Assembly (NCBI GenBank): GCA_036245525.1
Contig: BTPG01000003.1
Coordinates: 211,978,445-212,042,444, forward strand
DNA length: 64,000 nucleotides
Direction of reading: 5' to 3'
Source of the DNA: Semisulcospira habei
Taxonomy: Eukaryota > Mollusca > Gastropoda > Semisulcospiridae
Positions 777 to 63,095 of this stretch are shown here, piece after piece; position 1 is the first letter of the stretch, and each line of letters opens with the position of its first letter. Made by a program: the position numbers and the translations under genes. A model generated the notes under the pieces. The model searched no databases and was not told the DNA's origin. It worked only from the letters and a program-made list of their open reading frames with translations.

Positions 777-991
777 TTAACTCATTCTACCCCAGCACCG
801 AAATCCCCCAAATGTTGCCGTTGTTCTCTGAAGACTGCATTGCAGCGCAGTACACAGATCGACCATGATAGTTCAAGGGTGATGCCAGAATAGCTTGGCG
901 CCCGTAGGCGCCAAGCTATTCTGGCATCACCCTTGAACTATCATGGTCGATCCTTATCTTGCTGTGGTGTGTCTGGGGTAGAATGAGTTAA
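777..991 (+). mobile_element. Family B (B2 type) TTAA-bounded hairpin MITE
   Basis: The termini are perfect 19-bp inverted repeats (TTAACTCATTCTACCCCAG and its complement), bounded by TTAA, 215 bp in all. The centre, 857-952, is a near-perfect 96-bp palindrome with a tiny loop at GGCGCC...GGCGCC. There is no coding capacity. The TTAA target and TTAAC terminus resemble piggyBac-type elements by inference. The element abuts a family-A element at a shared TTAA. Confidence 0.85.
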
Positions 992-1082
992 AGCTTTTTT
1001 TCCTCTCCCATAAGTTTGTTGCTCTATGCATGTAAAAAGTGTCAATGTCGGTAAAACTGAGGCCGAGTTAGATACACACGGA

Positions 1083-1229
1083 TTAACCCATTTACTTCAC
1101 GGCCGCATTTTCAACATTTTGGAGTTGACTATGCACCAGTTGCGGGAGATGGATCGACCATGACAATTGAATTCAATTGTCATGGTCGATCCATCTCCTG
1201 TTGTAGCGCTTCGGAGCTAAATGGGTTAA
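1083..1229 (+). mobile_element. Family B element with apex-less palindrome
   Basis: TTAACCCATTTA opens and TAAATGGGTTAA closes this 147-bp element. The hairpin at 1144-1200 keeps only the base of the family-B stem (GATCGACCATGA), closed by CAATTGAATTCAATTG. The whole GC-rich top of the usual stem is absent from both arms, and the remaining palindrome is near perfect. Confidence 0.85.
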
Positions 1230-1622
1230 GCAGCTACATGACATATCGATTTCTTAGATCCAATCTCAAATAAACAGACAGACGCAGCACGTCTTTGTTC
1301 TTGACCTAGGTCAGCGTGCCTAGTCAGAGCTCTGTCCAGGGCACAGGCACATGATGATCGTTGCGTAACCGACTACGCAATGAACCCAGTGGGCGAATAT
1401 CCTCGGGCCGACGGCGGCAGTAGTTGGCCCGCGCACGGCTGACTGGGGGTCTTCGGCAAAAGTGAACGCAGACAGGTCCATGCCTCGAGCAAGTTCAACA
1501 TGATATTTGACTTCAATGCGATCTACTTTCAATGCGCGCTTCGCACACTCCTCCGCTTCGTAATCGGATTAGCTGGCGGAGTTGCGTGCATAGCCAAGCT
1601 GCAGGTGATTGGCTGTCGCGTT

Positions 1623-1872
1623 TCAAATTGAAAGAAGTACTTAACGGAGAAAGAAACATTCTTAGAACAGACAGTTCCAACACAATTTATTAAATGCAGT
1701 TGCCACATTCCTTCTTCGATAAATGATGACAAGTAGCGACTGATCTCTATCTTTGTTTGTTTGTCTGTTTTGAGAAATGGTATTTACCCGAAATATGAAT
1801 AAATTGTGTTGTGTTGTAAGTGTCTTTTCTAACCGTGTTTCTTTCTCCGTTGGGTACTTCTTTGCATTTTAC
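1623..1872. mobile_element. Short inverted-repeat element (AACGGAGAAAGAAAC family)
   Basis: The left arm (about 1623-1695: AACGGAGAAAGAAAC, then AGAACAGACAG and ACACAATTTATTAA) recurs as its reverse complement at about 1795-1872. Related copies lie at 23724-24212 and 36093-36209. No reading frame was seen between the arms, which fits a non-autonomous inverted-repeat element. Confidence 0.7.
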
Positions 1873-2287
1873 ACGCTTGGCAGTCACCTTTTTGGTCTGG
1901 ATTTCAAATTGAAAGAGCATTGAAAGAAAATATGACCCGTTCTATTTGGGCTAAAATTCAACTCTTGGAGCGGCGTAAGCATCATTTCAATCCCCGTCTG
2001 CGGGCACCTTTACACCGAAGACGGATTCTGTTCTCGATTACGCAACGATCATCGCGTGCATGTCGGCGAGGTGACGCAATACTCGGCCGTAACCTTTATC
2101 TCTATAACGCTACACGGTAAGCAATACGCCCAGGGGACTAACGTCACCTTGAGGTGGCTGTGTGCGAGCATTCTAACGCTGATGTCGGCTGCATGATCTT
2201 TGTGCAGTAGGCTACCGTACTCATCCAGATTAACGCAACAATTTAACCCCCGCAACTGCTACTAACAATACCTTTCGTACCCGCGTA

Positions 2288-2397
2288 CCTTAACTACTTC
2301 ACTGCTGAGAAAATCTGAACGCTACCCAAATGCAAGAGGCATAGATCCTCATGAGCCCCCGCTGTCGCGGGGGCTCATGAGGATCTATGCCTCTTGC
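2288..2397 (-). mobile_element. Family A hairpin element, minus orientation
   Basis: TTAACTACTTCACTGCTGAGAAAA at the left is the diverged complement of the usual family-A right end. The hairpin itself is 2332-2397: GCAAGAGGCATAGATCCTC pairs perfectly with GAGGATCTATGCCTCTTGC around a GCTGTC apex. It lies in intron 1, 203 bp before the next exon. Confidence 0.85.
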
Positions 2398-2599
2398 ATA
2401 ATCCACGCTCCTTTGACGTCTTGGGATTTTTGAAGTTGAAATTAGAAGGTTTTCAAAAACACAGTCAGCGTCCAATGTTTAACCACTACTATCAATACAG
2501 TTCCAATAAAAAACGCGCAGTTGCGCGTCTTTTCCGCCGAGTGGCATGGTCAGTAGCAGGTAAGGAGTTAAAAGGTTTTATTGTTACTTTCTGAACCAG

Positions 2600-3314: not shown

Positions 3315-3381
3315 GTGTGCCGGTCTGTGATTTCGGACCTTACGGCTTACGCCGTAAGGTCCAAAATCACAGACCGGCACA
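3315..3381. repeat. Family C palindrome
   Basis: GTGTGCCGGTCTGTGATTT pairs with AAATCACAGACCGGCAC, with a CCTTACGGC...GCCGTAAGG apex. The CCGG variant is present in both arms, whereas other copies read CTGG/CCAG. The element ends 96 bp before the acceptor of the large exon. Confidence 0.9.
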
Positions 3382-3477
3382 GGAAAAATGTTGCTTCTCA
3401 CAGGTGAGACAGATAAACGTAATATTATTTGTTCCCTACGGGTGAGACAGGTACACGTCTTATTTTGTTTTCCGCAG

Positions 3478-5241
3478 GTGGGTCAGCTGTACCAGGACGA
3501 GGACGAGCTGATTCACGCTGTGGCCACAGAAGCGGCGGACGCGGCCATAGCAGCGGCGCTGGAGGAGCACAGGCGGATGCTGCGCCAGCATGAGGACGAG
3601 AACGGGAACCCGCCTTCCCCCACAGACGACGCCCCCTTCCCGTCCTGCACCAGCCAGGCCCAGGCGGCCCCCACGTCGTCAGCACTCCCAGTCAGCACGA
3701 ACTCTGGCATGGGCGACAGGTCCAGGGTGACGACCACGACCAGCGGGCGGCTGGAGGGTCAGGAGGAGGACGCCAGGAGCCAGAGACGCGCCCTGGAGGC
3801 GCACATCAGTGACGAGATCAGCAAGATTACGCAGGGGATGCAGGACATCGTGAGGCGGGGTGCCGCCGACATCAAGCCCATCCCGCCGCCCAAACCCCGC
3901 CGCAGACTGCCTGAACCCACGATCGAGATGACCTCTACAGCCGGGGCTGGGATCCTGGCCGCCGCCGCCGTGCCGACGTCTGTCACCTTCAGCAAGACGC
4001 CTGCACAACCAACTACCGCTGCGCCGTCTCTATCTCCGTCTCTACGGAGAGCAAGGACCAGCAAACCTGAAGTCAGAGTGAGAATGACGGACAAAGTGGA
4101 GGAAATACCACCGGTTGTGACCTCAAGTTCACCATCAAAATCTTTGGCCTTGAGTTCTCCTTCAAAAGTCGTGACGTCAACTTCACCTTCAAAAGTCGTG
4201 ACAACAAGTTTTTCCAAAGCTGCTGAAGACAAACCGGTGTGCGAGGGAGCATCAGCGTCTACCTCCTCGCCGTCTGGATCAGTAGGAGAGCCTGATTCTA
4301 GCGGCATCCCTCGACAGGACTCGGCGGAGAAACGCAAAGCTAAGGACCTGAAGGCCAAGCCCAGTCCGCTCCTGATTCAGCACATAGAGGCAGAGGAGCA
4401 GTCCGTGTCGCCGCACTACAAGGTGATGGACTCTCCGCCCACGCCGGAACACAAGCACATCAAGCGAGAGTTCTCGGAGAGCACGTCAGTGTCGCCATCC
4501 TCCTCGCCCGATAACGACCAGTACATGTTCCCTTCCCCCGTCACGCCCCCAGACTCAGACTCCTCCCCTCCCAAGCCCCACTCTCCGTCCTCGGCCGGCA
4601 CGGATCTGGACGAGGAAAGTCTGCAGTACGTTAGCGCTAGAGAGTTGATGGATCAGGACAGTCTGCATTACGTCAATCCCAGAGAGCTGACGTCTGAGGA
4701 GGAGCTTCAGTACGTCAGAAAGCTTAGAGACGAGGAAAATCCCTACGTCAATACGCGAGATCTGAGGCGAGACGAGGACAGTGTACAGTACGTCAACACT
4801 CGAGGCTCGAGGCGAGAAGACAGTACTGGTGGTCAGATCTCGAGTTGTGACGTACGGACGTATGTGAACACTCGAGATCTGACCACCAGCTCCAGTAGCA
4901 GTAATGCAGGGGACGTGGCTACGTTCAGCACCAGCACGTCACTCGCGGCCAGTGCAAGTTTCGATCCGCGCTCAGACCCTGTGTCGAGAACAGTGGATAC
5001 TGTCGGCCAGGACGCCAGGGTTGGAGAAAGAAGGGCCCCACCTCCTGTACCTGTTCGGAGTAAAGTTCCTGTGGTTTCCTCTGATGACACTTCCCGAGCG
5101 AACCTCACCAGCAGCACTACGACTGCTACGATACCGTCAACCGCGAGCACGCCGAAGGTGGAGCGTCAGTCATCAGAAGGAACGGATACAGACGGGTCAG
5201 AGTCGGCCAGCGTGCGGGACAAGATCCGTGCTTTTGAACAG
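3478..5241 (+). CDS. Large exon (588 codons) of the scaffold-like protein
   Basis: The acceptor TTTTGTTTTCCGCAG precedes VGQLYQDEDELIHAVATEAA, and the exon ends DKIRAFEQ before a GTGAGC donor. Visible parts, in order, are: an acidic/Ala-rich probable helix (about residues 1-40); a proline-rich IPPPKPRRRLPEP, an SH3-ligand-like site (about 140); Ser/Thr/Pro-rich repeats with SPSK units (about 215-250); and a block with four Tyr-Val-Asn motifs (YVNP once, YVNT three times, 4667-4876). A second proline-rich site, APPPVPVRSKVP, lies near 5040. pYxN is the known Grb2 SH2-binding motif, so a tyrosine-phosphorylated docking scaffold is inferred, not shown. Codon third positions are GC-rich, unlike the flanks. 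The gene name is not recognised. Confidence 0.75.
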
Positions 5242-5261
5242 GTGAGCAATCAGTGTTGCTG

Positions 5262-5506
5262 TGTGTGTGTGGTGGGGGGGGGGGGGGGGGGGGGGCGAAG
5301 GGTAGACGTATTAGCATATGTGCGTGGGGGAAGGGAAAGGGTAATAAGGGTGAAGAGATCGGAGAGGGAGGTTGGTAGAAGGGGGAGAGGGGGGGGGGGG
5401 AGAGTGGAAGGGAGGTAACTGAAGAAAGAGGGACCCAGTGCGCAAAGGCCATGGGGGGGGGGGGGGGGGGGGGGTGAGAGAGAGGGGGGAAGAGAGAGAG
5501 AGAGAG

Positions 5507-7759: not shown

Positions 7760-7937
7760 TTAACTCATTCAGCCCGACGCACCTATTTACCCAAATCTGG
7801 GAGGCGTCATCTAACGACTAAGGACCTTCTTGCAGGAGATAGATCGACCATGATAATTCAAGGGTAGTGCCAGATTAGCTTGGCGCCGACAGGCGCCAAG
7901 CTAATCTGGCACTACCCTCGATTACACTATCCTCGAA

Positions 7938-12039: not shown

Positions 12040-12252
12040 TTAACCCATTGTGTCCCAGGTACGAAATACCCACATTTTGGAGTTGTCCTGTAAGGACTGC
12101 ATTACAGTTCGGAGGACGGATCGACCATGATAGTTCAAGGGTGGTGCCAGAATAGCTTGGCGCCTGTAGGCGCCAAGCTATTCTGGCACCACCCTTGAAC
12201 TATCATGCTCTATCCATGTCTTGCTGTGGTGTGTCGGGGCTAAATGAGTTAA
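12040..12252 (+). mobile_element. Family B (B2) hairpin MITE
   Basis: The 213-bp element runs from TTAACCCATTGTG to CTAAATGAGTTAA. The hairpin is 12119-12214. The left arm base reads GACCATG but the right reads CATGCTC, so one arm alone carries a change. In the copy at 45114 the same change is present in both arms. Confidence 0.9.
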
Positions 12253-12651: not shown

Positions 12652-12828
12652 CAATAACCCACCCAGCCCTGACGCCCTACATCAGGAGATGGGTCGACTG
12701 TCGGCGCCAAGCTAATCTGGCACTACCCTTGAATTATCATGGTCGATCCATCTCCTGCAGCTGGTGAATAGTCCTTAGATGACGCCTCCAAAATTTGCGA
12801 AGTACGGCCGTCGGGCTGAATCGGATAA
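12652..12828 (+). mobile_element. Family B element with most of the left arm deleted
   Basis: Left end AATAACCCACCCAGCCCTGACG and right end CGTCGGGCTGAATCGGATAA are both degenerate. The left arm jumps from GGGTCGACTG straight to TCGGCGCC, while the right arm is complete, leaving a lopsided hairpin. Confidence 0.8.
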
Positions 12829-14456: not shown

Positions 14457-14551
14457 GATCGCCCATGATGGTTCAAGGGTGGTGCCAGAATAGCTTGGCG
14501 CCTGTAGGCGCCAAGCTATTCTGGCACCACCCTTGAACCATCTTGGGCGAT
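14457..14551. repeat. Family B (B2) palindrome with arm-paired substitutions
   Basis: The left arm reads GATCGCCCATGATGGTTC and the right GAACCATCTTGGGCGAT. Relative to the usual GACCATGATAGTTC, two changes appear in both arms as complementary pairs, and one (T/A) is unpaired. Confidence 0.9.
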
Positions 14552-14875: not shown

Positions 14876-15604
14876 AGGGTGATTCTGTAGTAGATGTCAT
14901 GGCGTTTCTCTTTCAAATACTGGTGTAAAAGTTATAGTGGCCCCAGGCCGATCTAGTGGAGATTTATTTTTGCTAGTTACTCCCCTCACGCTGAAGGGAT
15001 CGCGTGTCCTTCTGGCGTGTGGTGGATCAGTCAAACGCACTGTGTTCGCAACAAAAAAACAAAAAAAAAAGAAAGAGAAAAAAAGGAGGCCTTTGGATGA
15101 CAAAGAGAAAAGTTTGAGGTTGTACAAAAAATGTGTTTCCTATTTGTTTCTCCATTTCATATTCATGGAGTTTTATTTTACGTTCATTGTCTGCATTTCT
15201 ATTATATTTCTATTTATATAATACTCCTCAAGCGAAACACGTCAAAGGGTTGTTCAGTTAACGCTGAAGACCGTTGCTCCTTTGGCAATTGATGTCGCTA
15301 GGCGTCACTTTCTGTTGCTGTGGTAATATTCGAGTTTTATGGACACTGTCCAGAGCTGTCCGGAATAATCGACGCCCAGCTTCTTACCTTGTCCATGTGT
15401 AAGAGGCTTGCAGGTCCCCGTGAGCCAGTGTACACTGCACGACTTTATGCGGATCTGTAAGCCTCTTTGGCTGGCAGGAACCGTACGCTTAATTTTTTTC
15501 ACGTCTGCTTTACAACAGTACATGGCACTACAACAGCAACCCACATTTTTTTGCAAGACGAAAAAAAAAAAAACACAAAAAAACTAAACTTTAAAAAAAA
15601 AAAC

Positions 15605-15812
15605 CATTAGCCCCTACGCCCTACAACAAGTAATGGATCGACCATGATAATTCGAGGGCAGTGCCAGATTAGCTTGGCGCCTGATGGCGCCAAGCTAATC
15701 TGGCACAACCCTCGAATTATCATGGTCGATACATCTCCTGCAACTAGCACATAGTCGTTTGGTGACACCTCCCAAATTTGGGAAATGTGGCCGTGGGGTT
15801 AAAGGGGTTAAA
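15605..15812 (+). mobile_element. Family B (B1) hairpin element
   Basis: The left end is decayed (CCATTAGCCCCTACG) and the right end reads GGGGTTAAAGGGGTTAA. The hairpin at 15634-15738 is nearly perfect, with TTCGAGGG/CCCTCGAA in both arms where most copies have TTCAAGGG. Confidence 0.85.
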
Positions 15813-15972: not shown

Positions 15973-16046
15973 TTAGTTCAAGGGTGGTGCCAGAATAGCT
16001 TGGCGCCTAAAGGCGCCAAGCTATTCTGGCACTACCCTTGAACTAT
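15973..16046. repeat. Family B (B2) palindrome lacking its base
   Basis: TAGTTCAAGGGTGGTGCC pairs with GGCACTACCCTTGAACTA (one mismatch). The GATCGACCATGA base present in other copies is absent on both sides. Confidence 0.85.
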
Positions 16047-16416: not shown

Positions 16417-19400
16417 GGTTTGGTACAGCGGCGTGCTGCACGCTGGCTATGGATGGCACTGAATACTTCCATTGTGGGCACCCTAGAGGCGTTTGGTACG
16501 TCGGCGTCCTGCACGCTGGCTATGGATGGCACTGAATACTTCCACTGTGGGTACCCTAGAGGCGTTTGGTACGGCGGCGTCCTGCACGCTGGCTATGGAT
16601 GGCACTGAATACTTCCACTGTGGGTACCCTAGAGGCGTTTGGTACAGCGGCGTGCTGCACGCTGGCCATGGATGACACTGAATACCTCCACTGTGGGTAC
16701 CCTAGAGGCGTTTGGTACGGCGGCGTCCTGCACGCTGGCTATGGATGGCACTGAATACTTCCACTGTGGGTACCCTAGAGGCGTTTGGTACGGCGGCGTC
16801 CTGCACGCTGGCTATGGATGGCACTGAATACCTCCACTGTGGGCACCCTAGAGGCGTTTGGTACGGCGGCGTCCTGCACGCTGGCCATGGATGGCACTGA
16901 ATACCTCCACTGTGGGCACCCTAGAGGCGTTTGGTACGGCGGCGTCCTGCACGCTGGCCATGGATGGCACTGAATACCTCCACTGTGGGCACCCTAGAGG
17001 CGTTTGGTACGGCGGCGTCCTGCACGCTGGCTATGGATGGCACTGAATACTTCCACTGTGGGTACCCTAGAGGCGTTTGGTACGGCGGCGTCCTGCACGC
17101 TGGCTATGGATGGCACTGAATACCTCCACAGTGGGCACCCTAGAGGCGTTTGGTACGGCGGCGTCCTGCACGCTGGCTATGGATGACACTGAATACTTCC
17201 ACTGTGGGCACCCTAGAGGCGTTTGGTACCCTATAGGCGTTTGGTACAGCGGTGTCCTGCACGCTGGCTATGGATGGCACTGAATACCTCCACTGTGGGC
17301 ACCCTAGAGGCGTTTGGTACAGCGGGGTCCTGCACGCTGGCCATGGATGGCACTGAATACCTCCACTGTGGGCACCCTAGAGGCGTTTGGTACGTCGGCG
17401 TCCTGCACGCTGGCTATGGATGACACTGAATACTTCCACTGTGGGCACCCTAGAGGCGTTTGGTACGTCGGCGTCCTGCACGCTGGCTATGGATGGCACT
17501 GAATACCTCCACTGTGGGCACCCTAGAGGCGTCTGGTACGTCGGCGTCCTGCACGCTGGCTATGGATGACACTGAATACTTCCACTGTGGGCACCCTAGA
17601 GGCGTTTGGTACGGCGGCGTCCTGCACGCTGGCTATGGATGACACTGAATACCTCCACTGTGGGCACCCTAGAGGCGTTTGGTACGTCGGCGTCCTGCAC
17701 GCTGGCTATGGATGACACTGAATACTTCCACTGTGGGCACCCTAGAGGCGTTTGGTACGTCGGCGTCCTGCACGCTGGCTATGGATGACACTGAATACTT
17801 CCACTGTGGGCACCCTAGAGGCGTTTGGTACGTCGGCGTCCTGCACGCTGGCTATGGATGGCACTGAATACCTCCACTGTGGGCACCCTAGAGGCGTTTG
17901 GTACGTCGGCGTCCTGCACGCTGGCTATGGATGACACTGAATACTTCCACTGTGGGCACCCTAGAGGCGTTTGGTACGTCGGCGTCATGCACGCTGGCCA
18001 TGGATGGCACTGAATACTTCCACTGTGGGCACCCTAGAGGCGTTTGGTACGTCGGCGTCCTGCACGCTGGCTATGGATGACACTGAATACCTCCACTGTT
18101 GGCACCCTAGAGGCGTTTGGTACGTCGGCGTCCTGCACGCTGGCTATGGATGACACTGAATACCTCCACTGTGGGCACCCTAGAGGCGTTTGGTACCCTA
18201 TACGCGTTTGGTACGTCGGCGTCCTGCACGCTGTCTATGGATGGCACTGAATACTTCCACTGTGGGTACCCTAGAGGCGTTTGGTACGGCGGCGTCCTGC
18301 ACGCTGGCTATGGATGGCACTGAATACCTCCACTGTGGGCACCCTAGAGGCGTTTGGTACGGCGGCGTCCTGCACGCTGGCTATGGATGACACTGAATAC
18401 TTCCACTGTGGGCACCCTAGAGGCGTTTGGTACACTATAGGCGTTTGGTACAGCGGCGTCCTGCACGCTGGCTATGGATGGCACTGAATACCTCCACTGT
18501 GGGCACCCTAGAGGCGTTTGGTACGTCGGCGTCCTGCACGCTGGCTATGGATGACACTGAATACTTCCACTGTGGGCACCCTAGAGGCGTTTGGTACGTC
18601 GGCGTCCTGCACGCTGGCTATGGATAACACTGAATACTTCCACTGTGGGCACCCTAGAGGCGTTTGGTACGTCGGCGTCCTGCACGCTGGCTATGGATGA
18701 CACTGAATACCTCCACTGTGGGTACCCTAGAGGCGTTTGGTACGTCGGCGTCCTGCACGCTGGCTATGGATGACACTGAATACCTCCACTGTGGGTACCC
18801 TAGAGGCGTTTGGTACGTCGGCGTCCTGCACGCTGGCTATGGATGACACTGAATACCTCCACTGTGGGCACCCTAGAGGCGTTTGGTACGTCGGCGTCCT
18901 GCACGCTGGCTATGGATGACACTGAATACTTCCACTGTGGGCACCCTAGAGGCGTTTGGTACGTCGGCGTCCTGCACGCTGGCTATGGATGACACTGAAT
19001 ACTTCCACTGTGGGCACCCTAGAGGCGTTTGGTACGTCGGCGTCCTGCACGCTGGCTATGGATGGCACTGAATACCTCCACTGTGGGCACCCTAGAGGCG
19101 TTTGGTACGTCGGCGTCCTGCACGCTGGCTATGGATGATACTGAATACCTCCACTGTGGGCACCCTAGAGGCGTTTGGTACGTCGGCGTCCTGCACGCTG
19201 GCTATGGATGGCACTGAATACCTCCACTGTGGGCACCCTAGAGGCGTTTGGTACGTCGGCGTCCTGCACGCTGGCTATGGATGACACTGAATACTTCCAC
19301 TGTGGGCACCCTAGAGGCGTTTGGTACATCGGCGTCCTGCACGCTGGCTATGGATGGCACTGAATACCTCCACTGTGGGCACCCTAGAGGCGTTTGGTAC

Positions 19401-41271: not shown

Positions 41272-41350
41272 AATGTCTTCTGACCGGGGCACGTATCCTT
41301 CAAAGGATAACGCCCCAAATTTTTGGGATTTTGATAAAGGGCTCAATATG

Positions 41351-43173: not shown

Positions 43174-43469
43174 ATGGGTAGCGTTCGCCTTGCCCCGGCA
43201 GAGAAGGGGTTACAAGCCTGCGGGTTTATGTCAGACTGTTGGGGTGTTCGCTGCGTGACTTTGTGCACGGATCGATTGTATGCCTGTGTGTTTCTCACAG
43301 ATGAAGGGTGCTCGCCTACAGATTTCTCCAGGTGTTCAATGCATGCCACGCGCGCGTGCTGTTTTGGTTAGTGATAAACTTGAAAACCGGTCGAGTGAGA
43401 CCCAGTCAATCACAGGATGCAAATAGGACCCGGCTATATTGTCAGGCGGCACCGGTTGTCGTGCCTCTT

Positions 43470-43535
43470 GCAAGAGGTATAGATTCTCATGAGCCCCTGC
43501 GACTGCAGGGGCTCATGAGAATCTATGCCTCTTGC
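43470..43535. repeat. Family A palindrome, TTCTC/CCTGC subtype
   Basis: The left arm is preceded by TGCCTCTTGC, so a third short arm abuts the stem. Left TAGATTCTCATGAGCCCCTG and right arm are fully complementary. 43536-43939 shows nothing recognised. Confidence 0.92.
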
Positions 43536-43939
43536 ACATGAAAAGAACTTGTTGACGGATTACACTGACGTGATCGTGTTTGCGCGTAGTAGAAACGTTT
43601 GTGTATTGTGTGCAAAGTTTCAGAATATTCACCTGGCCTTTTCAGGTATTAGTACATGAGTAGGCCATCTATAGTCATACTGTTGGATGCGTTCTGGTTT
43701 TCACGATAGCTCTATTTTGAAAATGACTGGTCGGATTTCTTTAATGGGAGGCTGACAACTGTGTCACGTGTGCACGGCAATAGAGTGGAAGATTGTTTGA
43801 ACAGCCGTCGCTGATGTGGAAAATAGACCGCTAATAAGTTGTGTGAATCGGCTCCGTTTGGCGTGCGTTTTGCTTGAACTCATTCACCCGCGTCAGCTGC
43901 ACTACAAATAAGATGTACAACGGCAATGATAATTCATCC

Positions 43940-44151: not shown

Positions 44152-44296
44152 ATGATGATTCTGATGTGGTGTTTGGGTTGAATTGCACGTAATTTTCAAT
44201 GGCCAGGAGCTGCCTTTGACAGTCCTAGCGGCTTTGTTTTGGTTATTTTCAGCCCCACGCAAACGTCATCTTGGCTGAAATGCAAAGGGACTTTGC

Positions 44297-44662
44297 TGGC
44301 TTAGAAATGTTTCTGCAAGTGGCCACTGATGACTGATGACTAGCCAGGATGCGCTACAACTGGAAGTAGAGCGACCATGATAGTTCAAGGATGGCGCCAG
44401 AATAGCTTGGCGCCTTTAGGCGCCAAGCTATTCTGGCACCGCCCTTGAACTATCATGGTCCCTATGTCAGTCTTCTGACCAGGCACGTATTCTTCAAAGG
44501 ATAACACCCAAAATTTGGGGATTTTGATACTCAATATGTTAACTCATTCCAGACGTGCCACGTCCGGATACGCGGGATAAAGCCGCCGTAAAGCCGCGTG
44601 TTCTGATACAGCACAACTCAAATGTGTTAACCTTTTGTACGTGGGGGCTTTCGCTTTGTGAG
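44297..44662. repeat. Duplicate of 41145-41475, with full-length hairpins
   Basis: CTGGCTTAGAAATGTTTCTG through GTGGGGGCTTTCGCTTTGTG parallels 41150-41475. It includes a complete family-B hairpin (44371-44461) and a family-G element (44539-44630). Confidence 0.85.
44371..44461. repeat. Family B (B2) palindrome
   Basis: GCGACCATGATAGTTCAAGG is paired with CCTTGAACTATCATGGTCC-equivalent sequence around the normal GGCGCCTTTAGGCGCC apex, with few mismatches (GGATGGC versus GCACCGCC). Confidence 0.9.
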
Positions 44663-45075
44663 TTTACGTGATAAAAATGCAAATTATTTTTCAGTCAGGA
44701 AAAGGCCCCTACCGAATTCTTACTGACGTCAACGCCAAGCTTTCACTAGCCTGGCGATGACGTCAATCAGAATGCCAAAGGCCCCGTAACCAGAGAACAG
44801 GCGAAATTTCATAATATGTTTTTGCACTCCTGATAGTGCAAAAATCTGTTCGCAATACAAAACGTTGGAGACATTGTTTTGTAAACCGACAAACAATCTC
44901 TTCTACAAATGTAATATTGCAGGCTGTGGCCATTCGAAATAAGCCGTAGAAAGTCCGTTCTGTCAGGAGCCGTGAAGCCGTTGTTTTCGTCAAACAAGCA
45001 CACTTTGAGCCCTGTGTTTTCAACTGTGGTGCGTGTTTGTTTCATTACTACAAGTCAAACCTTATCTGCAAAACT

Positions 45076-45289
45076 TTAACTCATTCAGCCCCGACGCACC
45101 ACAGCAAGACATGGATCGAGCATGATAGTTCAAGGGTGGTGCCAGAATAGCTTGGCGCCCATGGGCGCCAAGCTATTCTGGCACCACCCTTGAACTATCA
45201 TGCTCGATCTGTCTCTAGAATTGTGTTACAGTCCTTCGGAGGGCAACTTACAAATTTGGGGATTTCGGTCTTGAGATACAATGAGTTAA
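45076..45289 (+). mobile_element. Family B (B2) hairpin MITE, paired C-to-G change
   Basis: The 214-bp element is bounded by TTAA. The hairpin at 45114-45209 is perfect: GATCGAGCATGATAGTTC on the left, GAACTATCATGCTCGATC on the right, and a GGCGCCCATGGGCGCC apex. The GACCATG to GAGCATG change is in both arms. Confidence 0.93.
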
Positions 45290-47041: not shown

Positions 47042-50000
47042 CGCTCTGCTGCTTTGCCGTTCTTCAGAAATGCCACTGCTCTTCTGATCTCTTCCCGGCT
47101 GGGTCTGTCACAGCTGATGGGTAGGTCGGTCTCTGCTGGCTGGATGTCTGGGGGGTCGGGTGGGCTGGGTCTGTTCAGTAACTCTTCAAAATACTCGCAC
47201 CATCTGTCGAGTGGGTCTGCTCTGTCTGCAATAGGCTTGCCTTCTTTGTCTTTTACTGGTCTTTCTGTATGGCCATACTTGCCTGACAATCTTCTAGTAA
47301 TGTCGTAGAGCTGTTTCATGTTGCCGCTGCCTGCTGCCTTTTCTGCCTCTGCTGCCAGGCTGTCTGTGTATGCCCTCTTGTCTGCCCTGATACTCCTCTT
47401 CACCTCGCGGTTGACTTCCGAGTATTCCTCCTGTGCCCTTGCTTTGGCTGCTCTCGTGCGACTGTTGTTGACAACTGCTTTCTTCTGCTTCCTCACTTCT
47501 ATCTTCTTCAAGGTCTGTGCCGACAGCCAGTCCTTGTGATGGTGTTTCCTGAACCCTACAGTGTCTTTGCAGGTTGAGTTCAGCGCCTCTCTAACTTCCT
47601 TCCACTGCTGCTCTGTGGTGATCACCTCCTCTTCATTTACTAGCTCCTGTAGCGCTTGAAAACAGACCTAGCCCACCCGACCCCCCCGACATCCAGCCGG
47701 CAGAGACCGACCTACCCATCAGCTGTGACAGACCCAGCCGGGAAGAGATCAGAAGAGCAGTGGCATTTTTGAAGAACGGCAAAGCAGCAGGGCCAGATGG
47801 CATCCCAGCGGAGTCCCTGAAAGCAGACCTAGAGACAACAGTGGAGATGCTGTACCCACTGTTTGGAAAGATCTGGGAAGAGGAGGTGATGCCGGCTGAC
47901 TGGAAGGAGGGATACCTAATCAAGCTTCCCAAGAAAGGCGACCTCAGCAAGTGTTCCAACTACAGAGGAATCACCTTGCTGTCAGTACCAGGAAAGGTCT
48001 TCAACAGGATCATCCTAGAGAGAATGAAGAGCTCCGTTGACCCCCAGCTGAGAGACCAGCAAGCAGGATTCAGGAAGAACCGATCATGTACAGACCAGAT
48101 CGCCACTATCCGCATCATCGTGGAACAGTCTCTGGAGTGGAGCTCCCCGCTGTACGTCAACTTTGTGGATTATGAGAAAGCATTTGACAGCGTGGACCGA
48201 GAGACTCTGTGGAAACTCCTACGACACTACGGTGTACCCACAAAGCTCGTCCGCCTGATCAAGAGAAGCTACGATGGCATGACATGTCGCGTGATCCACG
48301 AAGGGCAGTTCACCAGGGAGCTCCAGGTCGGAACTGGTGTCAGGCAGGGGTGTCTGCTGTCTCCGTTCCTCTTCCTACTGGCCATAGACTGGGTCATGAA
48401 GATGACCACAGAGCACAGACGAAGTGGAATACAGTGGACACTGTGGACACAGCTTGACGACCTCGATTTTGCAGACGACTTGGCATTACTGTCCCACACT
48501 CATCAACAAATGCAGGACAAGACCACAAGGCTTGCTGACATCTCCTCCCAAGTGGGCCTCACCATTCACAAACAGAAAACAAAGACAATGAGGCTGAACA
48601 CCACCAGGGAAGAACCAATCTTGCTTGCTGGCACCCCGTTGGAGGAGGTGGAGTCCTTCACCTATATCGGGAGCATCATAGACAAAAAAGGCGGCACTGA
48701 TGCAGATGTCAGAGCACGAATCGGTAAAGCCAGAGCAGCCTTTCTCCAGTTAAAAAAAGTGTGGAGTTCCAGAGAGCTGTCACAACACACCAAAGTCCGG
48801 ATTTTCAACTCCAATGTAAAAGCAGTTCTCCTATATGGAGCAGAGACTTGGAGATTGACAAAAACCACAGCCAACAGAGTACAGACCTTCATGAACAGTT
48901 ACCTTAGAAGAATTTTGAAAATCCACTGGCCAGAGAAGATCGGCAACATCAGACTCTGGAACAGAACAGAGCAGATAACAGCAGAGAATGAAATTGGGCG
49001 AAGAAGATGGGGATGGATCGGTCACAGCCTGAGAAAGCCAGCTTCCAGTATCACTAGGCAGGCATTGTCATGGAACCCCCAGGGAAAGAGGAAAAGAGGT
49101 AGGCCGAGAAACTCCTGGCGTCGAGACCTCCAAGCAGACATCAAGAGACTGGGAACCACCTGGAGTAGAATCGAAGGAGAAGCACAGGACAGGAGTTGCT
49201 GGAGGTCTCTCGTCGACGGCCTATACCCGGGTAGGGGTGACAGGCGTAAGTAAGTAAGTAAGTAGCGCTTGAAACCGGTTGGATAGCACCAGTTTGAACT
49301 CTTCTCTCACTCCAGTCTCTCTCAGGAGGCCTACATTATAGCGCTGTCTTCTTGTTGTCTCTGTGCGGCTTTTCTTTAACTTGAGCTTTATTCTTACGGT
49401 AAGCAGATGGTGGTCTGAGGCGACATCTGCTCCTCTCCTCACTCGAACATCTTGAAGGGATCTTCTAAATTTCTTGCTAATGCAGATATGGTCTGTTTGG
49501 TTCTCTGTAGTATGGTCAGGTGAGACCCAAGTTGCTTTGTGTATTCTTCTGTGTGGGAAGATGCTGCCTCCAATGACAAGTCTGTTTAGAGCACAAAAGT
49601 CTACGAACCTCTCCCCGTTCTCATCTCCCCTAGTCCCTGTCTCCCCATCACCTCTTCATATCCGGTGTTGTCCTCCCCTATTTTGGCATTAAAATCACCC
49701 ATGATGATGGTGATGTCTCGCTCCGCACATTTGTCCACGGCACTCTGAAGTCGGTCGTAGAACTCTTGTTTCTCTTCATCGTCACTGTCATTAGTGGGCG
49801 CATCACACTGAATGACGTTCAGCTTGATCTTTTTCTTGGTTCTAAAGGCTGCTGTGATAATTCTTGGCCCAAGAGGTTCCCAGCCCATCAGCGCACTCTG
49901 TGCCACTGGTGACAGCATGAATGCTACTCCTTCTGTATGGGGGGCATTCTCCTCTTCATGACCTGAATACAGAATCATCTCCTTACTTAACAGCCTTTTC

Positions 50001-51156: not shown

Positions 51157-54100
51157 TCTTCTTCTTCTTCTTCTCGAACGCCGTCACACTTGGAGTTTGG
51201 CTCTCAAAATGAAATCTGTGGTCTTCTGTAGCGCCTCCACAGGCCCGTACAGTTTCTCTTGTAGAGTGGCGGGCTTCGGCCATATCTCCTCCCTCAGCGG
51301 CTGGTGGTTCCCACAGTCCTGGAGGATGTGCTCTGCGGTCTGCTCTGCTTCTCCACAAGGGCACAGGGGAGATGGCACGAGGTGGAAGCGTCTGTGCAGG
51401 TGGAAATTGAGTCGGTTGTGCCCGGTCCTCAGACGAAAGATGGTCACCTGCTCTTGTCTGGACAGCTGATGGTAACTGTCTAGGGGCCGTTGTGGTGGTC
51501 TGTACACAGACTTAATGATGGTCTTCATCTCTGTGAAGCTGACTCCATTTTCATCTTGTTCTTTCTTTGCGCCCACTTTTGCCATTCTGTCAGCTTCTTC
51601 ATTGCCGTAGATGCCACAGTGTGAAGGGATCCACTGCAGCACCAGTCTGGTGCACTTGATGTTTTGCAGTGCCTCTTGTAGACGTGGCAGTTTGCTTGCT
51701 GTTGCTGCCTCAAGGACAGACATGGCATCAGTAAGGAAGACAATCTGGGCATCAGGGTCTGCAGTGCCACTAAGGGTGTTAGCTGCGTGGACTAGGGCTT
51801 CCACCTCAGCTCTGTAATTTGTGCAGTGAAGGCCTGTTGGTACTGCCTCTGCCTGCCATTTTCCGTTTGGGTACTGAATGTACACCCCAGCCCCTCCATC
51901 CTGAACTGCATCTGTGGCTGATCCATCGGTGTATGCCCGTATCCATGCTTCCTGGGGATACTTTTCTTCGAGCATGGCCAGTGTCAGGACTTTCTTGCTC
52001 ACAGTGCTGTGCTCATCTCTGGTGGCGATGTAGGGTACCGTGGAAGAGATGGCGATGTTTTCTGGCTTACTTTCCCAAGGTGGAAGGTCGCTAGCAGGAT
52101 TCAGAGCCTCTACCTGCGCAGGTAGATTTGCCTGGTGTTTTCTCTGCAGTGCTCTCGTCTCCTTCACAAAGCTTGATCTTTTCAGTCTCCCTGAGGTTGG
52201 TTGTTTCATCCTAGCGTTCATAGGATGGTCTTTGGAAGACTTGACCTTTGTGGACTGTATCAAGGCTTTGCAATCTCTTCTCATGCGCAGGGGTGGGATG
52301 CCCGTTGTCTCTTCCATCTTTTCAATTGGTGTGGATCTCATTGCGCCGGTGATGATACGCAGTGCCTGGTTCTGAACTCTGTCAATGGTCTGCTGGTGTG
52401 ACTGGGCTGCCGTCAACCATGCATTAGATCCGTACTCAAGGTGTGGTCTCACTGTGCCTTGATATACATTTTTGAGGATCTTTTCATTGGCTCCCCATTG
52501 TGTTCCAGCCAGTTTTCTCATGATGTTCAGCTTTCTTCTAGCTTTCGCTTCTGCATTCCAAATGTGCGGCTTCCACGTCAGCCTCTTGTCAAGGGTGACT
52601 CCCAGGTATGTCTGTTGGTCTTCATACCGCAGCGGGGTGTTGCCCAGTGTTAGGTTGCCAGCCTTTGCCTTGTTGGAGAGAGAGAAGAGTGTGGCTGATG
52701 ATTTTTCTGTGTTGATGGTCACACACCAGTTGTTGGTCCAGTCTGTCAGCCTGTCCAGGGCTAGCTGCATCCTGTATGTAGCAGTTGTTGCATACTCTTC
52801 TGTGCACCAGAGTACCAGGTCGTCTGCGTACAGGGCTGCGTGTACTCCTTTGGTAGCTCTGGCACAAGGTCGTTGATGAAAAGTATGAACAGTGTCGGTG
52901 ACAGGACTCCCCCCTGTGGCACCCCCTGACGCAACAGCACTTTTTGGCCACAGTACCCATCCACTGTCACACGGGCTCTGCGATTATGCAGGTATGACTT
53001 GGTCCACCGGTACATATTCCCTTGGATGCCACTGTGAAGGAGTTTCACAAGGAGACCATCCTTCCACACCTTGTCGAAAGCCTTCTGTATGTCAATGAAG
53101 GCAGCTAATGTCACCTTCTGATCTTGAAAGGCATCTTCTATGACCTGTGCAAGGTGTGTTGTCTGGTCTTCTGTACTCTTGTAGCTTCTGAAGCCAGCTT
53201 GCTCTGGCACGATAATGCTCTCAGAGCCCAGGTACCACTGCAGGCGCTTGTTGATGATGCGCTCCATGGTCTTGCACACACAACTTGTCAGGCTGATGGG
53301 GCGATAACTCAGGGCTTTGGACTTATTCTTTCCTTTCTTCAAAATTGGGATCATCCTGGCTTCCTTCCAGCACTGGGGTACCTGACCTCCTCTCCAGCTG
53401 TGGTTAAAGATGTCCAGTAGCTTCATTAAGGCAGTGTTGCCAAGGTGTTGTAACATCTCGTTTGAGATGCTGTCTGGACCTGGAGATTTTTTCTTCTTCA
53501 GCTGTTTGATGGCCATCTTCAGTTCTGGAAGGGTGATGTCCTTCTTCATTGCATCATGGATGTTCACATCTCTTGTTCTCTCTCTTTCTTCCTGTCTGAT
53601 TTCTTTCGCAAGCATTCGTGGGACAGTGATGTCACTTTCTTTCGCATAGATCTGTGCAAACATGTTTGCAGCTTTCCTACCAGTCAGTGCTTTCCCTTCT
53701 TCTTCCAAGGTGATCTTCTGTTCCCTGGTGCCCTCATCGTTCAACGCCTTGGTCAGTCTCCACAACTTCGTGGTGTCCCTGTCCATGTTTAGTCTTGCAG
53801 TCTTCTCTCTCCAACTTCTTCTTGTGCACTCCAACTTCATCTTCAGATACTGGGCCTTAATGTGTTGTAGCTTGATGTTGTTTTCTTGGCTGGGGTTGGT
53901 TTCAGCGTCTTCTCTGGCCCTAGTGCTTTCTGAAGATCTGCGGTCCAGTATGGGGTGTAGTTTTTCCGGACCCCTCGAGGTATGGATTCCTTGGCTGCCT
54001 TACTGACAATGTCATTAAACTCTCTGACCACATTGTTGATGTTCCTTCCAGACACAGCGAGGTCTTGCATTAGCTCATTTGTTCGGATACTGAACAAGCG

Positions 54101-55675
54101 CCAGTCTGCCTTTCGGTAGTTCCATCTTGGCCGGTGTGGCGAGCTAGCTGCTGTGCATCCTTTTAGGATTAGGAGGATAGGGCGGTGGTCACTTCCTCCT
54201 AGCTGTGGTCCTACTGTTCTGCTGAGGCACTTATGAACATCTTCAGTGCAAAGCGCCAGGTCCGGTGTAGTGGTGGTGTGCCAGCGGCGAGAGTAGAAGG
54301 TAGGTTGGTCCTCAGGGTCATTGGCAAGTATCAGGTGGTTTTCATCTTGCCACTCCTCAATGTCTTCTCCTCTCTTGTCCAGTGTGTCATATCCCCAACT
54401 CTGGGACTGGCTGTTGAAGTCACCAGTGATGAGGAATCCACTGTCCGGGACCTGGATAGTGTCGAGGGACAGCAACTTATCATTAGGGCAGTAGTAGTTG
54501 ACAAGGTCAAGGGTGCTGTCACTGGTGGTTACCTTGACCTGGATGTATTCTGCCTCTTCCATGAATCTCCTGGTTTCGCTGGCATTCAGGTTGTTTCTAA
54601 CTAGGGTCATAACCCCCCCTTTCTTCCTCCCTTGGCGATCACTTCGGAAGACCTGATATCCTCTGACCTTAAAGGGTTTCCCTTCTTACAGGTGTGTCTC
54701 TTGTATACAGCAGATGTTTATGCTGTTTTCATGCAGAAAGTGCTCTAGTTCTGTTTTCTTGTTGGTAACCCCTTCGGCATTCCAGTGCATGATGTTCACA
54801 TTGGCTTTTTCTTTGTCTCTGGTCTTGTTTTTTCGCTGGCCAGTCGCTCTACTTCCCAGTCCCCTGGCTCCTCGAGACAGTCGGGAAGGTCCTCCAGTCG
54901 CTGGGGGTGGGCTCCGAAGAGGCACAGAGCCCGGTACTGCACCTGCCTGGTGAGACTCCACAGGGCGAGCACCATTCCTCTTGAATCCATCTCCAAGTGT
55001 CATATGGCTGTATATGCATGGTACTGTGGTTTATTAGAGTGCGCTGTGCAGCCCAGTACCTCCGTCTTCAGCACTCGGGGTTTCTGTCGGGGTTACCTCA
55101 CCCTTAGCTCCTGGTCAAAAGGCCTTTCCTGGGAGCACAGGATGGTTTAGTTTTGGAGTATCCTTCTCCTAGATGGATTGCCGACCAAGGCTTATGGGTC
55201 CCATCTACTCAGGTTTTTCCTCGGAGTTTTCCTTCTCGAAGGAGATCTGCCAACCAAGGCTATCGAGCATCCCTGCCCGGATTTGTATAGGGTTTACTCC
55301 CCTAGCCTTTGCCTCTCCCAAGGCACCCACAAGGCAGTGGGGCTATTTACCCATAGCTGGGGATCTGGTTCATGGGCATCAGGGCTTGTCCACACATCGA
55401 TGGGCCTGCATGCCGCATGTCTGGGGGCCAGATCTCCTCCGAGTCCTCTGTAGTTCAGCCCGAGTCCGTAAGGTGCTCGGTTACCATGAGTCACCACGAG
55501 GAGGCACTACATGAGGCTTGTTGTTGGAGAGGCTGTGTACTGGCAGGGAGAGACTGACATGTTCTGCTCCCCTTTTCGCAAAACTGCTAGCCAGCGGTGG
55601 GAGCTGAAAGCGAGAGCGACAAGCACAGACGCTACACTACCACACTAGACGCATCACAACAACCATTTGACCCAC
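51157..55675 (-). mobile_element. Full-length RNase H-bearing LINE (I-group-like), 12-bp TSD
   Basis: The 4.5-kb minus-strand element ends 3' in (GAA)n at 51157-51175. It is flanked by the direct repeat TGCACCAACACT (51145-51156 and 55676-55687). It has about 670 bp of 5' leader and one coding region with endonuclease, RT and RNase H. No separate ORF1 was seen. A 5'-truncated sister copy is at 60932-61818. Confidence 0.92.
51184..55003 (-). pseudogene. ORF2 of the RNase H LINE (endonuclease-RT-RNase H), three lesions
   Basis: Reading from 55003: an Arg/Pro-rich leader, then endonuclease motifs NIMHWNAEG, CIQETHL, LITGDFNSQSQSWG and GGSDHRPILL; RT motifs SPGPDSISNEML, LSYRPISLTS, VPEQAGFRSYKS, FIDIQKAFDKV, RQGVPQGGVLSP and catalytic YADD (about 52833); RNase H motifs AYTDGSA, YRAEVEAL, LTDAMSVLEA and PSHCGIYGNEEAD; and a C-terminal CPCGEAEQTAEHILQDC. 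Lesions are an in-frame TAA after QETHL near 54685, a frameshift near 53915 and another near 52858 just before YADD. The protein would nick target DNA and reverse-transcribe its own RNA. As read, it is inactive. Confidence 0.9.
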
Positions 55676-59991: not shown

Positions 59992-60209
59992 TTAACCCAT
60001 TCAGCCCGACGCACTACAGCAGGAGATGAGTCGACCATGATAATTCAAGGGTAGTGCCAGATTAGCTTGGCGCCCGTCACGTCGGCGACAAGCTAATCTG
60101 GCACTGACCTTGAATTATCATGGTCGATCCATCTCCTGCAACTGGTGCATAGTCATTAGATGACGCCTCCACAATTTGGGAAATAGGGCCGTCGGGCTGG
60201 AGCGTGTAA
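59992..60209 (+). mobile_element. Family B (B1) hairpin MITE
   Basis: TTAACCCATTCAGCCCGACG opens it. The right end is decayed (CGTCGGGCTGGAGCGTGTAA). The hairpin at 60020-60140 has an extended CGTCACGTCGGCGA apex. An A-run of about 29 bases follows at 60220. Confidence 0.88.
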
Positions 60210-60217
60210 TACGGCAC

Positions 60218-60252
<35 letters not shown>

Positions 60253-60931
60253 CTACGAAGAAGAAAACACGCCTAGAAATGCACCGCATTGGACCTGTCT
60301 AATCGTTTTTAAGTCCTTTCTATTTAAAGAAGGGACTTTTAGGACGGGTCGCGGTGGGGCGAATTTAATCGCATGTCCATGATGTCAAAGGTGGGCAGGC
60401 TAAGCCTCTAACAATTAAAGTAACAAGATAAAAATTACCTCATGTCTAGTTACGCTAACTTCGCTGCTGAACGTACATTTGGCGCAAAGCGCCGTATGTA
60501 CGTATGTATGTATGTGTGTGCGTATGTACGTAAACAAGAGAATCTCCGATATTTCTGTACACACAAGCTTGAAACTTGGCGAAATACTTTCTTAAGTGGG
60601 TGGCTAAGACAGCCTCCGAGCATAATTATTGTAATTGAATGTCTCATTGAAGACATAAAACAACCGTTTATAGGAAGTCGGTTGACCCAGATTAGAGTCC
60701 GTAATGTTTGTCATATTTACTTGAACTTTTGCATATAGCTAGTTTGGATAATGACATTGAGTGAGTTCGTTGGGCAGCTTTGTATCCTTTAACTTCTTTA
60801 GTAAAAATTAATTCTTTTCAGAAAAGAATTAAAACACTAAAAAAAAAATTAAAAAAATTAGAGAAAGGCGGTCAGACAGTGCCGCTGACGTAAAAGAAGT
60901 AACTACGTCACCACGCAGACACTGATACTCT

Positions 60932-61818
60932 TCTTCTTCTTCTTCTCGAACGCCGTCACACTTGGAGTTTGACTCTCAAATTGAAATCTGCGGTCTTCTG
61001 TAGCACCTCCACATGCTCGTACAGTTTCTCTTGTAGAGTGGCGGGCTTCTGCCATATCTCCTCCCTCAGCAGCTGGTGCTTCCCACAGTCCTGGAGGATG
61101 TGGTCTGCTCTGCTTTTCCACAAGGGCACAGGGGAGATGGCACGAGGTGAAAGCGTCTGTGCAGGTGGAAATTGAGTCGGTTGTGCCCGGACCTCAGACG
61201 GAAGATGGTCACCTGCTCTTGTCTGGACAGCTGATGGTAACTGTCTAGGGGCCGTTGTGGTGGTCTGTACACAGACTTAATGATGGTCTTCATCTCTGTG
61301 AAGCTGACTCCATTTTCGTCTTGTTCTTTCTCTGCGCCCACTTTTGCCATTCTGTCAGCTTCTTCATTGCCGTAGATGCCACATTGTGAAGGGATCCACT
61401 GCAGCACCAGTCTGGTGCACTTGATGTTTTGCAGTGCCTCTTGTAGACGTGGCAGTTTGCTTGCTGTTGCTGCCTCAAGGACAGACATGGCATCAGTCAG
61501 GAAGACAATCTGGGCATCAGGGTCTGCAGTGCCACTAAGGGTGTTTGCAGCACGGACCAGGGCTTCCACCTCAGCTCTGTAATTTATGCAGTGAAGGCCT
61601 GTTGATACTGCCTCTGCCTGCCATTTTCCGTTTGGGTACTGAATGTACACCCCAGCCCCTCCATTCTGAACTGCATCTGTGCGGGCTGATCCATCGGTGT
61701 ATGCCTGTATCCATGCTTCCTGGGGATACTTTTTTTCGAGCATGGCCAGTGTCAGGGCTTTCTTGCTCACAGTGCTGTGCTCATCTTTGGTGGTGATGTA
61801 GCATACCGTGGAAGAGAT
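60932..61818 (-). pseudogene. 5'-truncated copy of the RNase H LINE, 10-bp TSD
   Basis: The copy holds only the RNase H and C-terminal part of ORF2 (AYTDGSA, YRAEVEAL, LTDAMSVLEA, PSQCGIYGNEEAD). It ends in (GAA)n and is flanked by CTGATACTCT (60922-60931 and 61819-61828). A frameshift lies just after CPCGKAEQT. It has diverged by a few percent from 51157-55675. The preceding stretch 60250-60921 contains no supported gene. Confidence 0.9.
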
Positions 61819-61880
61819 CTGATACTCTATATATGACGTAATTGTCTCTCTCTCGCTCGCTCTTTCTAACACATATGCGC

Positions 61881-62582
61881 GCATCTCCAAGAGGCATAGA
61901 TCCTCATGTACCCGGAAAGCGCATGAACATCTACGCCTCTTGAGGATGTTTGGAGTGCGCGCAACCGCTCATGCACACGCATACACATACATCGACGCGC
62001 TTTCAGAAGAGCATGCAGGTGTACTTAGTATAGCATGTAGCTAGGTAAAGTCAGCCTGATTTCACACAAATTATAGCAAGACTGAAAATCAACTGTATCG
62101 TGAAATTCTAGTTTTGTCACCATTTTCGCAAGTCTTGAAGCAAAAGCGAAACTCATATCACCTTAAATATAGATTACGTAAAAAAATAAACGTCATGACA
62201 AATGACGTTTGACAAACCAATCTCACAATTGCATCTCCAAGAGGCATAGATCCTCAAGTGCCCGGAGCGCGCATGAACATCTATGCCGCTTGAGGATGTT
62301 TGCAACGCGCGCATGCATGCACGCACACGCATGCACACGCATGCACACACATCGACGCGCTTTCAGAAGAGCATGCAGGTGTACTTCGTATAGCATGTAG
62401 CTAGGTAATGTCAACCTGATTTCACGCAAATTATAGCACGACTGAAATTGTAACGTGAAATTCTAGTTTTGTCACCATTTTACCATGTCTTGAAGCGAAC
62501 GCAAATCTCATATCACGTTAAATATAAAATTACGTAAAAACAAAAACAAAAATGCGTCATGACATATGACGTTTGACAAACC
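61881..62582. repeat. Tandem duplication of a 350-bp unit headed by a family-A hairpin
   Basis: GCATCTCCAAGAGGCATAG starts both copies (61881, 62231), and both end GACGTTTGACAAACCAAT. Each starts with a decayed TCTCCAAGAGG-type hairpin. CA-rich spacers (CATGCACACGCAT) differ in length. The first copy lies 53 bp beyond the LINE's right TSD. Confidence 0.9.
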
Positions 62583-62901
62583 AATGACGCGTATGCACTG
62601 CTACTTCTCCCTGACAGACTGGTGTGCTATCCAACAGTAAATCGGTTATGGTAGCAGAAACATACTTTTAAGCATGAAGCACAGGGGAAGTAACTCCAAT
62701 ATTTGTGTGCCCCTGACGGGCTCTCGAGTATGACGCTTGGAGCCCCTCAGGGACATACAACTTGTGGATTTCCTCCCCCTGTGCCGGCAGTGAAGTTGTC
62801 AGAATTCCCTCCGCCTGGGCTGTCTTTGGCACACGGCAAATGTCGCGTCATTCGTCGTTACGAAGTTAATTACACGCTAAGTAATTACCACAGGCTAGTG
62901 G

Positions 62902-63095
62902 TTAACCCATCTAGCTCCGACACACAACAGCAGGAGCTGGATCGACCATGATAATTCAAGGGCAGTGCCAGATTAGCTTGGCGCCTGATGGCGACAAGCT
63001 AATCGGGCACTACCCTTGAATTATCATGGTCGATCCATCTCCTGCAACTGGTGCATAGTCGTGACCCCTGTAAAATTTGGGGTTAAATGGGTTGA
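62902..63095 (+). mobile_element. Family B (B1) hairpin MITE
   Basis: TTAACCCATCTAGCTCCGAC at the left and TTAAATGGGTTGA at the right, with the last TTAA decayed. The hairpin at 62931-63046 has GGCGCC against GGCGAC at the apex and one mismatch in the stem. Confidence 0.9.

Follow-up and report, generated by a model that had tools for sequence, protein, structure and literature searches.

Dispersed hairpins and palindromes with closely similar arms have been encountered in several systems. The GC42 elements and the double-hairpin elements of Allomyces move as bare hairpins, and for the palindromic Angel miniature inverted-repeat transposable elements (MITEs) of fish, the similarity between the arms has reportedly been discussed. 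In yeast mitochondria, GC42 hairpins are dispersed and their stems are more conserved than their loops (PMC4478555). In imperfect palindromes, one arm can serve as the template for the other, so that one-sided differences become matched (PMC8604942, PMC8794818, PMC3820800), and the mitochondrial palindromes of nematomorphs have perfect arms, for the concerted evolution of which template switching has been proposed (PMC6649704). Here we examine the hairpins of the gastropod Semisulcospira habei, in particular those in a stretch of 64,000 nucleotides (nt) of contig BTPG01000003.1 (G000:C3:211978445-212042444; this whole stretch is hereafter called the window), which belongs to an assembly totalling 1.98 Gb in 507 contigs; all data come from this one genome of one individual. 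A gapless scan for near-perfect palindromes found 50 in the window, including 15 of family B, 13 of family A and 7 of family C. The matching of the arms probably reflects inheritance from founders, combined with occasional events at the DNA level in which one arm acts as a template for the other. The subfamilies differ mostly by matched changes, each descending from founders whose two arms agreed at the marker sites beforehand; changes within a subfamily mostly strike a single arm, as is the case for B2b; and a minority of changes, at many sites and on many loop backgrounds, is present in both arms, about 100 times more often than by chance at one site counted genome-wide.

When the 15 B copies of the window were aligned together with their surroundings, the hairpin proved to be the central part of a larger element with TTAA at the ends and inverted termini, a few flanks being decayed. 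The flank is short on one side (about 28 bp) and long on the other (about 70 bp), and in alignments of 32 B2b and 10 B1t genome copies, column conservation stops at the TTAA on either side, giving a consensus element of 214 bp in each case. TTAA is present at both ends in 6 of 13 window elements examined (857, 1145, 12118, 23811, 37806 and 45114), and at one end or none in the others. The B2b termini, TTAACTCATTCTACCCC ... GGGGTAGAATGAGTTAA, are terminal inverted repeats with a 5'-pyrimidine, and the B element ends in this genome are TTAACCCATTC ends. Kolobok, another TTAA group, has termini of the form 5'-RR ... YY-3' (PMC9587614), a rule that does not hold for the B termini, which start with CT or CC; given these pyrimidine-first termini, we call the B elements piggyBac-like. 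The B hairpins thus form the palindromic centres of non-coding, TTAA-bounded, piggyBac-like MITEs about 214 bp in length. Like other piggyBac-like TTAA MITEs, these elements are short and non-coding, with TTAA at both ends and pyrimidine-first inverted termini, but they differ in that a near-perfect palindrome of 72 to 116 bp fills the centre. The B hairpins move within a TTAA-bounded element, unlike GC42 and the Allomyces elements, and are dispersed nuclear MITE cores, unlike the coding, mitochondrial palindromes of nematomorphs.

The family is large. When up to two mismatches are allowed, a 31-base segment of the B2 arm matches the genome at least 150,395 times in forward and at least 150,173 times in reverse orientation, compared to none for the reversed control, and the exact B tip with any 4-base loop occurs at least 94,742 times (all genome-wide pattern counts are lower bounds), so the number of B elements is on the order of 100,000 in this probable caenogastropod genome. 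The exact A tip occurs at least 35,310 times. Family A was initially a candidate for a bare mobile hairpin; this was rejected because a decayed flank starting with TTAACCC could be aligned in 40 genome copies, the orientation being weak for several of them, with the right end outside the reach of the alignment. Judging from the similar left end, the A hairpins probably sit in an element similar to B. Among the 13 A copies of the window, the flank pairs of only some beat shuffles. One B and one A pattern had no match in a single scan each of bacterial/archaeal and viral collections, and a literature search of partial coverage found no description of this hairpin family.

The first-pass annotation of the window had claimed that differences between copies mostly occur as complementary pairs in both arms. 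We split each palindrome into its two arms, compared each arm with the family consensus, classified the changed sites as matched (both arms), one-sided (one arm) or both-different, and shuffled the arm partners 5000 times. The counts of matched, one-sided and both-different sites were 7/8/0 in eight B2 copies (with one of the seven matched sites at the extreme edge of the core), 9/30/3 in 13 A copies, 10/14/1 in seven C copies and 1/13/0 in six B1 copies, the per-type B counts being without copy 1145, which entered the pooled B run only. The observed matched count was reached in 0 of 5000 shuffles for B2 and in 2 of 5000 for each of A and C. Hence co-variation above chance is real in these three groups, but "mostly" is not the right word: over the 34 copies, 27 changes are matched, 65 are one-sided and 4 are both-different. 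The individual paired changes that had been listed for A (at 25545, 35964, 38589 and 43469) and for C (at 3316, 36834 and 39140) were all recovered. The copies are as follows.

777-991, minus strand: B2 element with TTAA at the ends; palindrome 857-952 with 46 of 46 arm positions matched; both arms carry GTGATG, a subfamily marker found in other copies too.
1083-1229, minus strand: B1-type element; palindrome 1145-1198, tip lost symmetrically, arms 27/27 matched.
7760-7918, minus strand: B1 element, one arm broken off beside a TG repeat.
12040-12252, minus strand: B2 element; palindrome 12118-12215; GAGC change in the short-side arm only.
12655-12828, plus strand: B1 element, one arm largely deleted.
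14458-14551, plus strand: B2 palindrome; two matched changes (GCCC, GATGG) and one one-sided; decayed flanks.
15601-15811, plus strand: B1 element; palindrome 15633-15741.
15974-16045, unstranded: B3-type palindrome; position 35 one-sided, a state found in several B3 copies.
23783-23996, plus strand: B1 element; palindrome 23811-23926.
24615-24685, plus strand: B palindrome with decayed TTAA-type flanks.
26254-26467, plus strand: B1 element; palindrome 26282-26397.
37766-37918, plus strand: B1 element, most of one arm and the tip deleted.
41148-41481, plus strand: B2-type element; palindrome 41219-41271, tip deleted symmetrically; duplicate of 44293-44668.
44293-44668, plus strand: duplicate of 41148-41481 with full palindrome 44373-44460; three one-sided changes.
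45076-45289, plus strand: B2 element; palindrome 45114-45209, 48/48 matched; GAGC in both arms.
59992-60209, plus strand: B1 element; palindrome 60019-60139; right end not TTAA.
62902-63093, plus strand: B1 element; palindrome 62930-63045; right end TTGA.
2330-2399, unstranded: A palindrome with perfect 33-bp arms.
25545-25610, unstranded: A palindrome; two matched and two one-sided changes.
35964-36027, unstranded: A palindrome; two matched changes, none one-sided.
38589-38654, unstranded: A palindrome; one matched and three one-sided changes.
43469-43536, unstranded: A palindrome; two matched changes and one one-sided.
3316-3381, unstranded: C palindrome; one matched and one one-sided change.
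36834-36894, unstranded: C palindrome; one matched and one one-sided change.
39140-39188, unstranded: C palindrome without its tip (deleted); three matched changes, and a single one-sided change beside the loop.

A divergent B relative at 27292-27381, which escaped the gapless scan, has several matched changes and a deletion in one arm.

The genome-wide comparison used copies chosen by the exact tip within the first few megabases of contig C1 (97 of family B and 40 of family A), together with 20 further B copies chosen for a matched change at position 46 (arm positions of B are in 56-nt numbering). The two B types recognized earlier are indeed separated by matched changes at positions 25, 35 and 44. 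Counted over 145 genome copies (17 of 162 were dropped), the marker at position 25 is matched in 60 copies and one-sided in 9; the corresponding counts are 58 and 18 at position 35, 36 and 8 at position 36, and 60 and 7 at position 44. Several changes that had been taken for private ones are not: GTGATG of the window copy 857 is the mark of B2b, matched in 36 of the 145 copies, and GAGC, which is present in both arms at 45114, is similarly present in both arms of L019:2234 and L006:1486; the pairing itself, at 14458 (GCCC, GATGG) as well as at 45114, stood. The copy at 12118 carries GAGC in one arm only, as described, and so does L001:1486, whereas in L018:1283, one arm has GAGC and the other a different base, so that regarding the copy at 12118 as an intermediate is fair.

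Mismatched states are inherited as well. The T>C change at position 34 is one-sided in 24 and matched in 4 of the 145 copies, two of these 4 being a tandem duplicate; the A>G change at position 12 in B1 is one-sided on the short side in 9 copies, on the long side in 2 and matched in none of 53 copies (12 of 65 B copies, broken, one-armed or duplicate, were dropped, picked by eye); and position 35 is one-sided in several B3 copies. As these mismatches are common to many copies, transposition can copy a mismatch, and subfamilies inherit matched and mismatched states alike. Furthermore, all 29 B2b copies that were scored (3 of 32 were dropped for an indel shift) have unlike bases on the two sides at the outer position 7. 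The proposal that each transposition re-makes a perfect palindrome, for example, via a hairpin intermediate, would account for the many perfect arms but not for mismatches that persist at positions 34 and 12 in B1, at 35 in B3 and at 7 in B2b; these inherited mismatches count against re-making as an obligatory step for B, and the idea is hardly credible.

The inner arm (positions 23-44) of 86 copies differs by 6.6% within a copy and, between copies, by 15.1% for S-S, 15.9% for G-G and 15.5% for S-G arm pairs, a contrast attained in 0 of 5000 shuffles; independent mutation fails to explain this, as had been argued. Thus, in the inner arm, the two arms of one copy resemble each other more than arms of different copies do across the sampled types, but inside B2b the effect almost vanishes (4.8% within copies vs 5.4% between, 6 of 5000 shuffles). 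The sign that had been named as evidence to the contrary, namely, arms grouping by side, is present for the outer 10 bp of the B2b arm (50% within copies, 25% for S-S and 6.7% for G-G). The near disappearance of the arm effect within one subfamily indicates that most of the pattern was inherited from founders. An allele-sharing test that considered alleles present in three or more copies (p 1.0) carried no information, since recurrent mutation suffices to reach this number. As a separate observation, three B elements in a row at L020:2227-2693 share a matched change at position 15, and one of them is additionally matched at position 20, where L043 has the change in one arm only.

Matching beyond the founder markers is less frequent and still above chance. 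At positions 11-44 of 29 B2b copies, 3 changes are matched (0.19 expected by chance), one of them, at position 15, common to other copies; 46 are one-sided, 7 of these in a single, apparently shifted arm (L109); and 1 is both-different. Away from the markers, 91 sampled B copies (5 of 96 were dropped) have 19 matched changes, transversions among them, and 157 one-sided ones, with a chance expectation of 3.3 matched, six of the 19 being three changes common to L065 and L074. Under stricter criteria (77 oriented copies, B3 excluded), positions 19-43 hold 10 matched and 97 one-sided changes. For family A (40 copies, positions 2-17), the counts are 21 matched, where 1.85 would be expected by chance, 51 one-sided and 2 both-different.

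The tip position 46 could be counted genome-wide: 94,742 copies have it unchanged, 606 + 601 = 1,207 have a change to G in a single arm, and 455 have this change in both arms, compared to 3.8 expected at the one-sided rate. Among the first 50 listed of these 455, 24 have the loop TTCA/TGAA and look like one founder lineage, and the remaining 26 are distributed over 15 further loop classes. At position 47, 160 genome copies are matched, and the first 50 listed of them are on 18 loop classes. The twenty matched-46 copies with loops other than TTCA/TGAA are spread over several B types, although four of them have GAGC in one or both arms and may have a common origin. Of the 19 scorable ones (one was dropped), 9 hold further off-marker matched changes, amounting to 11 events of 10 kinds, compared to 13 of the 91 sampled copies with such changes (p 0.003). 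With so many kinds of matched change, transversions included, on so many backgrounds, exact double mutation is hard to invoke. With arms that share changes much more often than chance predicts (the exception being the six B1 window copies when considered by themselves), these hairpins resemble quasi-palindromes that undergo template switching; here, about a tenth of the off-marker changes and about a quarter of those at the one genome-wide-counted site are matched, a pattern read from copies rather than from events observed directly.

Several observations weigh against arm-to-arm copying. In the six B1 copies of the window, there is no matched excess (4445 of 5000 shuffles reach the count). 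The matched-46 copies are also somewhat richer in one-sided changes (2.16 vs 1.73 per copy in the sampled set), and the ratio of matched to one-sided changes differs only weakly between the two sets (11:41 vs 19:157, p 0.06). An apparent rise of matching toward the loop (5:91, 6:43, 8:23) was rejected since it was driven by B3 copies, the outer arms of which are unrelated; without B3, the ratio is 7:52 in the inner arm and 17:103 in the outer arm (p 0.82). One form of template switching should invert the loop, yet no inverted loop was found for TGTC and few were for TATG: relative to the flanks, in copies oriented by at least 15 bits, TATG was found 29 times vs CATA 2, TGTC 14:0, TTCA 9 vs TGAA 4, and TGAT 2 vs ATCA 2, the mixed orientation of the last two pairs, in part of B1, being a hint of occasional loop flips. 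Many small founder lineages could also put matched changes on many backgrounds.

One alternative is founder inheritance alone, whereby elements whose cores are symmetric have an advantage in transposition, symmetry is regained on rare occasions by a second mutation, and amplification of the matched version follows, with no copying involved. The markers and the changes inside B2b behave accordingly, the frequent markers being matched and the B2b changes one-sided (4:1 for positions 25, 35, 36 and 44 vs 34, against 3:39 without the seven of the shifted arm, p 0.0009). Variants held by several copies are rarer in the B2b core than in the flank (0.9% vs 4.3%), and in A, the difference from the consensus is 7.6% in the non-tip core and 34% in the flank, which suggests that the core matters in transposing lineages. 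In addition, in duplicated segments, the core diverges like its surroundings, with 14 of 404 core sites changed vs about 15.7 expected. The last figures sum five of 11 rows; six rows with less than 75% identity, in which different insertions were compared, were dropped, one of them having a core difference (17/115) like the rest and five being lower in the core (7 to 16% vs 22 to 27%). However, the spread of the matched changes over 16 loop classes at position 46 and 18 at position 47 (first 50 listed each), together with the transversions, would require many independent exact double mutations, and subfamilies with mismatched arms are amplified too. Founder inheritance without any copying appears to be a rather unlikely account.

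Ectopic gene conversion could exchange whole cores between copies and so carry matched changes across elements. The core is, indeed, more uniform than the flank in A, and for single-copy changes also in B1t (1.0% vs 5.6%, p 3e-7, 10 copies) and B3 (2.8% vs 9.3%, p 3e-5, 8 copies); with so few copies sampled, these single-copy changes may be lineage variants. The A flanks themselves are almost star-like (mean pair difference 0.507, star expectation 0.531). However, in B2b, the largest sampled set, the contrast for single-copy changes is weak (1.5% vs 2.2%, p 0.076), the five rows of duplicated segments reveal no protection of the core, and conversion would move matched changes but would not make them, so this explanation is improbable. 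Core protection at resident copies, a candidate that emerged from the pooled rates, is weak in B2b, strong in B1t and B3 and nil in the five duplicate rows; on balance, constraint on the core may act more in transposing lineages than at resident copies. The piggyBac transposases bind palindromic sites near the ends (PMC11707139), and a parallel with the palindromic core of the B elements can be drawn by analogy only.

Selection on an RNA stem, with the hairpin RNA as a source of siRNA or miRNA, could in principle keep the arms paired, and perfect stems of up to 48 bp would suit such a role. An RNA stem is expected to favour G-U intermediates on one strand; among the mismatches in 74 oriented copies, G-U and A-C are similarly frequent (59 vs 48, p 0.33), with 107 of 198 being transitions and 91 not, so the RNA stem, which had been among the explanations offered in the first-pass annotation, is not supported. 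No Rfam family reached the gathering score anywhere in the window. Overall, selection on RNA seems very improbable. A caution of general import is that matched changes between copies of a repeat are not proof of RNA structure because, here, the frequent matched changes are inherited markers and the rest fit a DNA process.

Founder inheritance with occasional copying would then work as follows. A founder with arms matched at the marker sites gives rise to a subfamily that inherits the matched state; from time to time, one arm of a copy would serve as the DNA template for the other, through template switching or hairpin-templated repair, which is the most likely origin of the remaining matched changes; and the matched version would then be amplified as a new subfamily, a sequence of steps suggested by the one-sided, matched and subfamily states of GAGC. 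In the tipless palindromes of the window (1145-1198, 41219-41271 and 39140-39188), the remaining arms are without mismatch in the palindrome scan, which is what cutting or bypassing of hairpins at the tip would produce, although the observation is suggestive only. Conceivably, although we put this forward tentatively, the roughly 100,000 near-identical hairpins amount to a natural replicate experiment in which arm-to-arm copying is ongoing at resident copies in an animal germ line, with a rate on the order of one-tenth to one-quarter of mutated copies at each site, and founds new subfamilies. If copying is indeed ongoing, tens of thousands of copies of one hairpin, with states countable per site, would give a direct rate of template switching at palindromes in an animal.

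The window has several other features. A 6.1-kb tandem array with a 73-bp unit and higher-order periods of 146 and 219 bp occupies 16418-22511, and a smaller array with a 34-bp unit is located at 42665-43007. At 29512-29793, a 54-bp unit is arrayed within an E-, K- and R-rich open reading frame, which looks like a retrotransposon gag-type protein. The regions 47760-49253 (plus strand) and 51187-54610 (minus strand) encode reverse transcriptase, endonuclease and RNase H domains and are probably pieces of non-LTR (long terminal repeat) retrotransposons; 52481-54506 is 98% identical to L025:7953-10000. Finally, the protein from 3388-5418 has its best named matches in the snails Nucella lapillus and Pomacea canaliculata, with 60% identity over 58-59% of the protein.

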